Below are positions 23,761 to 29,266 of a DNA stretch of 64,000 nucleotides, one piece after another. The DNA comes from Acidisarcina sp. (GTDB taxonomy: Bacteria > Acidobacteriota > Terriglobia > Terriglobales > Acidobacteriaceae), in contig DATLIY010000008.1 in the NCBI GenBank assembly GCA_035539175.1, positions 744,001-808,000 on the forward strand, read 5' to 3'. The notes beneath the pieces were generated by a model. That model worked only from the letters and a program-made list of their open reading frames with translations, had not been told where the DNA came from and searched no databases. The translations under genes and the position numbers were made by a program. Within the stretch, counting starts at the first letter, position 1, and every line of letters begins with the position of its first letter.

Positions 23761-23810
23761 CTGAGAATATAAAAAGATCCCCGAGCCTGAGAATATAAAA
23801 GATGCCCGAA
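23761..23810 (+). repeat. Tandem 25-bp duplication covering the mutM start
   Basis: CTGAGAATATAAAAAGATCC (23761) is repeated as CTGAGAATATAAAAGATGCC (23787). Only the second copy has the ATG of mutM; in the first copy the matching triplet is ATC. The duplication places two AT-rich blocks in front of the gene. Confidence 0.85.
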
Positions 23811-24668
23811 CTGCCCGAAGTTGAAACTGTCGCCGCAGGAGTCCATGCCAAGGTCGCCGGAGATGTGATCCAGTCCGTTTGGTTCAGCTCCCAGCGAGAG
23901 CCATTCAAGACGCCTGCCACCGAGATGGAAACCGTTCTCGCAGGTCGCCGCATCCTTCGCGTGCACCGTATCGGCAAACATATCGTCTGTGATCTTGGCT
24001 CTGGCAAGGGCCGTGGCAGCGCGCACGCGCATGTAGAAGCCCAGTGGATTGTGCACCTTGGCATGACTGGACGGCTTCTCGCCTGTAGCCCCGACGACCC
24101 CGTGGCTCCCCACACCCATGCCGTGCTGGAACTGGCCTCGGGGCGTGAGCTGCGCTTTGTCGATCCTCGCCGCTTCGGACGCCTCTCCCTTCATCCTATT
24201 AAGTCAGTTAAGGGAGAGGAGGGGGGAGCGTCCTCTGGCTTCCATGGCACGGGCCAGGAGCCTCTTTCTATTTCACCGGAGGCGTTTGCCTCCCTCTTCC
24301 ATAGCCGCCGTACGCCCATCAAGGCGGCCCTGCTCAATCAGAAGCTGCTGCAGGGGGTGGGCAATATCTATGCGGACGAGAGCCTCTTCCACGCCGCCAT
24401 TCGGCCGCGCCGGTTGGCTTGCCGGCTTACCCGCGCCGAGCTGGGACGCCTCCACTCCTCCCTCGTCAAGGTTCTGCGCGAGGCAATCGCCCAGGGCGGC
24501 TCCTCTGTGTCGGATTATGTGGATGCCAATGGCGCGCGGGGGTTCTTTCAGCTGCAGCACCACGTCTACCTGCGGACCGGGAAACCCTGCTTCGTCTGCG
24601 GCACTCCCATCCGAAGAATCCTGATCGGTGGCCGTGGGACGCACTACTGTCCGGCCTGCCAAAGCTGA
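23802..24668 (+). CDS. mutM: Formamidopyrimidine-DNA glycosylase (Fpg/MutM)
   Basis: A 288-residue base-excision glycosylase/AP lyase for oxidised purines. The N-terminal PELPEVETV supplies the catalytic proline and glutamate. RIGKHIV holds the conserved lysine, LLQGVGNIYADESL is the helix-two-turn-helix, and CFVCGTPIRR...CPACQ is the C-terminal zinc finger. An insertion between the two domains (VKGEEGGASSGFHGTGQEP) makes it about 15-20 residues longer than most. Divergent from purA. Confidence 0.96.
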   Translation: MPELPEVETVAAGVHAKVAGDVIQSVWFSSQREPFKTPATEMETVLAGRRILRVHRIGKHIVCDLGSGKGRGSAHAHVEAQWIVHLGMTGRLLACSPDDPVAPHTHAVLELASGRELRFVDPRRFGRLSLHPIKSVKGEEGGASSGFHGTGQEPLSISPEAFASLFHSRRTPIKAALLNQKLLQGVGNIYADESLFHAAIRPRRLACRLTRAELGRLHSSLVKVLREAIAQGGSSVSDYVDANGARGFFQLQHHVYLRTGKPCFVCGTPIRRILIGGRGTHYCPACQS

Positions 24669-24788
24669 CCCGCCATTCCTGAAAACTATGGATTTACGGA
24701 AATTTAGCTCCTCGGAGTCTTCCAGAAACGGAAGAATCGCAAAGCCATCCATGCGCCAACCTTAACAAAACAAATAAAGATGGAAACG

Positions 24789-25002
24789 GCAGTGCGATTG
24801 CAGTATAGAGCGACAGCCAGTGACGCACACTTTAGAACCCTGGCAGTGAATAATGGGTCGAAGTGTGCGGATGGGTTCGAAAGCTATAGATCGGGATGCC
24901 AAGTCGTATCCCGGCACTGCGAGAATCCAGACAAAATTTTCGGGAGGCCAGCGACAGGCCATCAGGGATAGTCAGAGAAAGCCGCCACAGAGGCGGCTTT
25001 TC
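24789..25002 (+). ncRNA. Candidate structured RNA with three-way junction and terminator
   Basis: Three helices nest correctly by eye. P1 pairs GCAGTGC (24789-24795) with GCACTGC (24914-24920). P2 pairs CGCACACTT (24824-24832) with AAGTGTGCG (24861-24869) and continues as ACCC/GGGT across an internal loop. P3 pairs CGGGAT (24892-24897) with ATCCCG (24908-24913), ending one base before the P1 strand, so it could stack on P1. A terminator follows 57 bases later. It fits no RNA family that I can name. A 63-codon frame (24780-24971) over the same region has no clear Shine-Dalgarno or recognisable product. Confidence 0.5.
24978..25002 (+). terminator. Rho-independent terminator
   Basis: AAAGCCGCC and GGCGGCTTT form a perfect 9-bp stem with an ACAGA loop, followed by TCC. 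It lies downstream of the structured RNA candidate and about 310 bp after mutM, and so points to a separate short transcript or a long mutM 3' UTR. Confidence 0.75.
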
Positions 25003-25491
25003 CGTTGGACCCGTCCGTAAGCCTTCTTGATCCAGGACCCGTGCCCAGAGTAGGTTCTCAAACAAAACAAAATGCGCTTGCCACGCATCTGGAGAACGGG
25101 TACTATCAGTATTGCCATTGCCTATCGAGCGGCTGACGCCACCGCATTGCGCGTGGAAACTCGCCGCGGTTCTCGAGAGTCAAAGAAGAATTCAGCTATC
25201 GCTCTTCATCCAACGCCTGAGACCGACTGCATCTGGACCAGGTAAATTTCCGCGGTGAAGCATCGTTTGAATGCGAGTTGAAATAGCGTTGCGTAACGTT
25301 CCATTAGAAAAAACGCCTCTGCTCAGTACGGTTCCTTCCCGACGCGCCCATGGCACGCAGGTTGAGCTGACCCTTTGGCGGCAACACTGTGTTTTGGAAT
25401 CAATCTGAATAGCCGGCGGTTACATAGCAGAGCGGCAACTCTCTCGCCGGTTCAAGTGGCAACAACAGGTATCGCACCAGGAAGTGCAAGC

Positions 25492-26373
25492 ATGACAACA
25501 GAGCAAAACGAGCCCCAGGCGCCGCTGGCGCAAGGGCAGGCCCCACAGGGGCAAGCGCAGGGACACCGTCGCCGCCGCCGCCGCCGCAAGGGACAAAGCG
25601 GAAGCAATCCAGCCAAAAGCCAGTCTGCTCCCCAGGCAAACGGCTCATCTCCCCAGGCCAGCCGGCCACACCCTGCAAACCAGGGACAAAAGCCAAAATC
25701 CCAAGGCAGATTCTTCCAGAAGAAATCAAATCCCGGGCAGGGACAGAACAATGCCAATCCCGGAAACGGACAGGGAAGCCGCCGCAAGAGCAAGCCTCGT
25801 CGCCAGCAGGTCTTTGTTGGCCCCATGGATCACAGCTATCGCACGGTGAATGGCAACCTGGCTGATGGCCCGCCCTCTACCATCGAACTGCGAAATGGCA
25901 ATGGCAACGGGAATGGCTCCTACTACACGGAATCCGCTCCAGCCCTTCCGCCAGCCGTCATTCGCGAAGATGCCCCCACCCGCATCTTCTGCTTTATCGA
26001 TGACCTCTTTTTCCTTGCCAAAATTCAGGAGACGGCGCGCAAACTCGGCGTCAAGGTCGGCTTCGTCAAGGCGGAGAAGGACATAGTGGCCCGGCTCAGC
26101 GATACACCGGAAGACGAGCGTCCTTCGCTCATCATCTTTGACCTGAACAATGCCAACGCCAAGCCGCTCTCGCTTATTCCCAAATTCAAGTCAAAGCTCA
26201 AGAAGGGTACCTCGGTGATCGGATTCCTCTCCCATCTCCAGAGCGACCTCAAGGCCAAGGCTATTGAGGCGGGCTGCGACACGGTGATGCCGCGTTCGGC
26301 GTTCTCGCAGAATCTTCCCAACCTTCTGCGCCGCCACGGCCTTACCGAAGAGCTTGAAGTGGCCGAAGCCTAA
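25492..26373 (+). CDS. Receiver-like domain protein with arginine-rich disordered N-terminus
   Basis: A 293-residue protein in two parts. Residues 1-160 are low complexity, rich in Q, N, P, G, and contain seven consecutive arginines (26-32) plus further basic patches (RFFQKK, RRKSKPRRQQ), suggesting nucleic-acid binding. Residues 163-283 look like a CheY-type receiver: RIFCFIDD with D170-D171, LIIFDLNN with D217 at the phospho-acceptor position, and SVIGFLSH. The usual lysine after strand 5 is not seen (VMPRSAF), so canonical phosphorylation is doubtful. The ATG at 25492 has GGAAG nearby; an open frame extends upstream to 25375. No kinase is adjacent. Function unknown. Confidence 0.75.
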   Translation: MTTEQNEPQAPLAQGQAPQGQAQGHRRRRRRRKGQSGSNPAKSQSAPQANGSSPQASRPHPANQGQKPKSQGRFFQKKSNPGQGQNNANPGNGQGSRRKSKPRRQQVFVGPMDHSYRTVNGNLADGPPSTIELRNGNGNGNGSYYTESAPALPPAVIREDAPTRIFCFIDDLFFLAKIQETARKLGVKVGFVKAEKDIVARLSDTPEDERPSLIIFDLNNANAKPLSLIPKFKSKLKKGTSVIGFLSHLQSDLKAKAIEAGCDTVMPRSAFSQNLPNLLRRHGLTEELEVAEA

Positions 26374-28537: not shown

Positions 28538-28967
28538 GCAGGCGGGCTGGGCGGTCGCTGCCGGGACGCGCAAGCGCCTCGGGAGAGGAAAGTCCGAACT
28601 CCGCAGGGCAGTGTGCCGGATAACGTCCGGGATTCCGGCTTCAAGGCCGGAAGACGGCCAGTGCCACAGAAAAAATACCGCCGGCCGCGCAAGCGGCAGG
28701 TAAGGGTGAAAAGGTGCGGTAAGAGCGCACCGCCCCGGCTGTAAAGTCGGGGGCAGGGTAAACCCCACACGGAGCAAGACCAAATAGGGAGGGAATTCGC
28801 GGCTTGACCCACTGCCGCGAGTGCGTGCCGGCCCGGCGCGCCCAGGCGGGTCGCCACCTGCAAAGGTGGGCGCCGAAACCTCCGGGTAGGTTGCTGGAGC
28901 GCCGCAGTAATGCGTCGCCTAGAGGAATGACCGTCCTCGACAGAATTCGGCTTACAGGCTCGTCTGC
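28538..28967 (+). ncRNA. rnpB: RNase P RNA, bacterial class A
   Basis: The catalytic RNA of RNase P, which matures tRNA 5' ends. Conserved blocks are GAGGAAAGTCCGAACTCC near the 5' end (CR-I), GTAAGGGTGAAAAGGTGCGG in the middle, ACGGAGCAAGACCAAATAGG, and AGAGGAATGACCGTC then ACAGAATTCGGCTTACA at the 3' end. P1 is formed by GCAGGCGGGC (28538-28547) and GCTCGTCTGC (28958-28967), which sets both ends; exact termini are estimated. Confidence 0.96.
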
Positions 28968-29266
28968 GAGCCCTGGCCCCGCGCCCCGGAAACGAGGCCG
29001 GGGCCACCGTCTTCCTCCCACAGTTGCCACGCCGCGGTCTTTTTTGCTCCCTGCCTCGTCCATGTCTGCAGCGAATCAGTGCCATCTCTGCAACAATCAG
29101 GGAACCGGGAACTCAGCCGTAGCGTACCTTCCAGAGGAGAAGTGTCTGCTCTGCCGATTGAGCCATCCGAGACAGCTCTGCATATCGCAACGATCCGGGG
29201 TGCGCTGGCTAAACCGATCGACCGGCTATACCAGGCGCAGGAAGTGCCAGGCATCCTAACGCAGCT
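28968..29266. other. Intergenic region after rnpB
   Basis: TGGCCCCG pairs with CGGGGCCA (about 28975-29009) in a GC-rich hairpin without a T run; this may define the rnpB 3' end. The remainder shows no gene. Confidence 0.45.

Follow-up and report, generated by a model that had tools for sequence, protein, structure and literature searches.

A small RNA gene between mutM and a receiver-like gene

What occupies the 823 bp that separate mutM, with its stop codon at 24668, from the next gene, a receiver-like gene that begins with an ATG at 25492? The locus lies in a 64,000-nucleotide stretch of an Acidisarcina genome, here called the window, to which all positions refer. A first-pass annotation, which had given the size of this gap correctly, placed in it a three-way junction followed by a terminator and suggested an unreported acidobacterial small RNA. 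We find that the gap does hold a real, undescribed small RNA gene, which differs somewhat from the structure first drawn (Table 1). The suggestion of a small RNA is supported by about 110 homologous loci in the Acidobacteriaceae, which have in common a sigma-54 promoter, a 3′ motif and an intrinsic terminator. The sigma-54 promoter and the dyads upstream of it, both missed in the first annotation, are the most informative features for the control of the gene.

The start of the RNA was placed at 24813 from the position of the -12 element and its end at about 25002 from the terminator. The 3′ end is that expected earlier (near 25002); the start is expected at ~24813 instead of near 24780, as had been proposed.

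Table 1. Features of the mutM–receiver-like gene interval
Feature	Position	Strand	Basis or remark
mutM	23802-24668
Distal dyad CTATGGATTTACGGAAATT, candidate enhancer-binding-protein site	24686-24704	+	homolog alignment; cluster of dyads at about -90
Proximal dyad CTTCCAGAAACGGAAG, perfect 5+5 palindrome	24719-24734	+	homolog alignment; peak at -60
Sigma-54 -24/-12 promoter CGGCAGTGCGATTGCA	24787-24802	+	GG at 24788-24789, GC at 24800-24801
Small RNA gene, ~190 nt	24813-25002	+	promoter geometry; fold z -4.8; terminator in homologs
Helix P1	24824-24833/24860-24869, inner 24837-24840/24855-24858 (span 24824-24869)	+	fold; pairing in G001
Helix P2	basal 24872-24878/24923-24929 (span 24872-24929)	+	fold; basal-stem covariation in homologs
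P2 apical hairpin CGGGAT/ATCCCG	within 24891-24915	+	fold
3′ module: U-rich stretch, then GGGAGGCCAGCGACAGGCC	24938-24960	+	near-invariant in homologs
Intrinsic terminator GAAAGCCGCC-ACAGA-GGCGGCTTTT	24977-25001	+	sequence, fold, equivalent hairpins in homologs
Sigma-70-like promoter of downstream gene, past the terminator	25078-25106	+	TTGCCA-17-TACTAT
Receiver-like gene	25492-26373	+	Arg/Gln-rich N-terminus, probably disordered

Fold of the RNA

The region 24780-25005 folds with -87.5 kcal/mol against -65.5 ± 4.4 kcal/mol for shuffled sequences (z -5.0; none of 200 shuffles as good). The predicted transcript itself, terminator included, has a folding energy of -73.5 kcal/mol. The body of the RNA, taken without promoter and terminator, has only a moderate margin over chance (z -2.5).

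All of the helices first proposed can be written. The 9-bp hairpin becomes the 9-10 bp of P1 with a CCC/GGG extension, the 6-bp hairpin stands at its place at the tip of P2, and the perfect terminator is present. The stem thought to close a three-way junction (24789-24795/24914-24920) is not confirmed as part of the RNA. Its seven pairs, GCAGTGC/GCACTGC, can be written, but the 5′ arm lies inside the sigma-54 promoter, upstream of the expected start, and so is promoter DNA. The corresponding arms in the same-genus genome G001, GCACCGT/GCACCGC, pair at only four of seven positions. We therefore rejected the closing stem, and with it the junction.

Compensatory change, proposed earlier as a check on the fold, is found in P2 of relatives; the closing stem is unpaired in G001. 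Across 24 homologs, 84% of cells in helix P2 are paired and 14 of its 16 pairs have changed on both sides. The covariation score of 0.398 exceeds that of shuffled alignments (0.219 ± 0.019; 0/500 as high) and is destroyed by sliding the partner. A covariance model built from these homologs matched neither the window copy nor other clades, and a strict class-wide scan with it found only two genomes; because of these misses the model was not used for distribution. The window copy is among the more divergent homologs. Since the model misses it, P2 in the window is drawn solely from its own fold and from G001. P1 also keeps its pairing in G001, where GCACAC/GTGTGC becomes GCGCAC/GTGTGC by a change of A-U to G-U.

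Homologs and conserved 3′ module

G001 aligns across the whole gap with ~73% identity. Further homologs come from Edaphobacter, Granulicella, Acidipila, Silvibacterium, Bryocella, Terriglobus and other genera, and their RNAs are laid out as two or three variable hairpins, a GGCC hairpin and the terminator. Of 111 homologs, 107 have a strong terminator, with a sequence that varies from genus to genus and pairing that is preserved. Before it comes the strongly conserved 3′ motif GGGAGGCCAGYGAYWGGCC, near-invariant as GGGAGGCCAGYGAYUGGCC. Many more loci were reached through this motif, and almost all of them precede the receiver-like gene. When 84,980 species genomes were scanned for exact copies of the motif, 55 loci were recovered, 51 of them under acidobacterial names, Acidobacterium and Paracidobacterium also being represented. 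The remaining four look like chance matches or mis-binning. One locus, L075, was a coding false positive and was excluded.

In the window the hairpin of the 3′ module (GGCC/GGCC, 24946-24949/24957-24960) has only 4 bp, and the U tail that follows the terminator is short (UUUU). The RNA of the window's clade carries GCCAGYGAC twice, near the 5′ end (24816-24824) and in the 3′ motif (24947-24955). One lineage (G009, L022 512-536) retains GGGAGGCCAGTGAC, the motif's 5′ half, but has lost the 3′ half of the hairpin; the activity may therefore reside in GGGAGGCCAGTGAC as such.

The receiver-like protein had no match in Pfam or NCBIfam, although 109 of 120 relatives spread over the class have it. 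Wherever enough flank is available, its gene almost always lies downstream of the RNA and in the same orientation. About 490 bp separate the terminator from its start codon, and the conserved sigma-70-like promoter between them is kept in G001 as TTGCCA-17-TAATAT. This promoter and a conserved leader belong to a second conserved block in the gap (25069-25183), which also precedes the receiver-like gene in other genera. The two genes can part: in the genome G066 an unlinked locus holds the RNA together with the same promoter, and the receiver-like gene is in place without it.

Sigma-54 promoter

Alignment of the homologs places CGGCAT-AAGAA-TTGCT, a GG-N10-GC element, at a fixed position before the RNA. 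The element corresponds to the sigma-54 promoter consensus TGGCAC-N5-7-TTGCT (PMC12316311), and many homologs carry the textbook form TGGCACGNNGATTGCT. The window promoter is weaker than most (CGGCAG for TGGCAC, 8/12).

GG-N10-GC is found in 59 of 59 family loci examined. It was also sought 120-190 nt upstream of loci picked by the 3′ motif alone, and in all 49 usable acidobacterial loci it scored at least 8/12, in 47 of them at least 9. Scores of at least 9 were reached in 2 of 55 control regions of equal size downstream and in 3 of 43 farther upstream. All three 3′ motif matches in clearly unrelated bacteria lacked a proper GG-N10-GC. A search upstream of the RNA gave no sigma-70-type promoter, and outside the family the receiver-like gene was not seen to be preceded by the sigma-54 element with the motif. 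A single RpoN is encoded in the genome.

Upstream dyads and the activator

Ahead of the promoter stand two dyads, 30 bp apart, that are related to TTCC-N6-GGAA. Over 109 loci such dyads form sharp peaks at distances of 60 and 90 bp before the -24 element, and in 40 of these loci the two together pass a strict cut-off, compared with 6.9% of shuffles. Most homologs have one or both, although only about a third have both at this cut-off. Such an arrangement is typical of activator binding sites.

Searched for in a Granulicella-like genus, the combination of proximal site and sigma-54 promoter gave 11 matches, of which ten are the RNA gene and one lies elsewhere. Because the combination occurs almost exclusively there, it suggests that the RNA gene has a dedicated regulator. 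The genome encodes about 11 enhancer-binding proteins. By tblastn, all five RNA-bearing genomes tested have orthologs of two core DNA-binding response-regulator activators (L117 and L121); these orthologs also occur in genomes without a recognisable RNA, so co-occurrence fails to name the activator. The gene behind L117 (also L297; G000:C7:294287-295720) encodes a core enhancer-binding protein with GAFTSA in place of GAFTGA. It is flanked on one side by a gene for a PAS histidine kinase and on the other by one for an MlaE-like permease, and has close orthologs throughout the family. The other core activator is the one at G000:C7:1113460-1113957.

A model for the RNA and its alternatives

We consider it highly probable that the locus encodes a stand-alone regulatory small RNA, driven by sigma-54 and an enhancer-binding protein, that acts in trans. 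Sequence comparison shows a conserved gene with its promoter, the two upstream sites in tandem, the terminator and the 3′ motif; transcription, start site, Hfq binding and trans action are what we infer. An enhancer-binding protein would bind the dyads at 24686-24704 and 24719-24734 and contact sigma-54 RNA polymerase at 24787-24802, so that an RNA of ~190 nt would be transcribed. The fold of this RNA would comprise two or three variable hairpins together with the conserved 3′ module, whose U-rich stretch, GGGAGGCCAGYGAYUGGCC hairpin and terminator with U tail would bind Hfq. Its action in trans would most probably be to pair with mRNAs, and such pairing should show as complementarity of targets to GGGAGGCCAGYGAC.

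The Hfq-binding module described for SgrS and RyhB consists of a U-rich stretch, one or more hairpins and a long 3′ U tail (PMC4509938). The 3′ end of the RNA resembles it in having AUUUUC and a double hairpin. Against the long U tail of Hfq-binding small RNAs stands the UUUU of the window; the tail is longer or interrupted in some homologs. Hfq is encoded in the genome, where, besides one clear gene, two reading frames with a weaker likeness to Hfq were seen (G000:C6:45124, G000:C7:595444 and G000:C7:511013).

Instead of pairing with mRNAs, a sigma-54-driven RNA could act like CrcZ and CsrB and titrate an RNA-binding protein, either Hfq or one similar to CsrA; CrcZ itself depends on sigma-54 and CbrB (PMC8871633). 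The best conserved element does hold GGGAGG beside a hairpin. Known sponge RNAs carry many copies of their motif, which counts against titration here, where the GGA-containing motif has a single conserved copy; we regard a sponge as unlikely, if the most serious competitor. The case for an attenuator or riboswitch of the receiver-like gene draws on the position of that gene, downstream and on the same strand, and on a terminator that comes after the fold. Such a leader would have to act across ~490 bp and past a separate conserved promoter, and in G066 the RNA is not linked to the gene at all, so that control in cis is improbable. The same two facts, the unlinked locus and the downstream gene's own promoter beyond the terminator, favour action in trans.

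Open frames of 44-66 amino acids overlap the RNA on both strands, and a small-protein gene or a dual-function RNA might be read from them. The 63-amino-acid frame at 24780-24971, for example, begins upstream of the expected transcript start, and the body of the RNA has many insertions and deletions between homologs, so we give coding very little weight. That intergenic DNA folds by chance, with no gene present, would fit the modest z of the window body and is the least credible reading of all, given the promoter, motif and terminator shared by ~110 homologs and the covariation in relatives. The trans-acting small RNA under sigma-54 control is thus our preferred reading.

Comparison with known RNAs

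Scanned against Rfam 15, the RNA reaches the gathering threshold of no family, whether in the window gap or in 19 homologous loci, and at E values up to 10 the gap gives chance-level matches only; the earlier annotation had likewise recognised no known family. Elsewhere in the window a bacterial class A RNase P RNA is found (28539-28970, + strand, 266 bits). Acido-1 (RF01686) and Acido-Lenti-1 (RF01687), noncoding RNA candidates from Acidobacteria (PMC2864571), match neither the window nor its homologs in the Rfam scans. In the literature searched, subscription papers and supplements excepted, we found no earlier report of the RNA, and the literature searched contained no described sigma-54-dependent small RNA of acidobacteria. 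The main text of two recent large structured-RNA surveys does not mention the homolog genera.

The RNA is a candidate new Rfam family. We put forward, tentatively, that the Acidobacteriota have in it their first recognised sigma-54 regulatory RNA, shared throughout one family, through which a dedicated activator may relay an environmental signal to mRNAs via the conserved GGGAGGCCAGYGAY; the activator is taken as dedicated because the site pattern is nearly unique to the RNA promoter. Acidobacteria are among the commonest soil bacteria. The promoter, activator sites and 3′ motif make up a concrete regulatory circuit that can be tested in cultured Granulicella, Edaphobacter and Acidipila.

In its control the RNA is like Qrr, GlmY and CrcZ, to which it is unrelated in sequence; sigma-54-dependent small RNA genes are a functional class, not a homology family. 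The Qrr RNAs of the Vibrionaceae, under sigma-54 and LuxO/SypG, are also small RNAs whose genes have a -24/-12 promoter preceded by two activator sites (PMC10162802, which describes their promoter control). Unlike Qrr, the window RNA belongs to a different phylum and, as noted, has no Rfam match. Enterobacterial GlmY and GlmZ are likewise sigma-54-controlled small RNAs of ~200 nt with several hairpins. They differ from the window RNA in the same two respects, phylum and Rfam match, and there is no evidence linking it to GlmS or RapZ (for GlmY/GlmZ biology, see PMC7073468). CrcZ, CrcY and CrcX are small RNAs driven by sigma-54 and CbrB and confined to one family, the Pseudomonadaceae (PMC8871633), just as the window RNA is limited to one bacterial family. 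CrcZ adjoins its activator genes and titrates Crc/Hfq, whereas the window RNA has one conserved motif and adjoins an unrelated gene.
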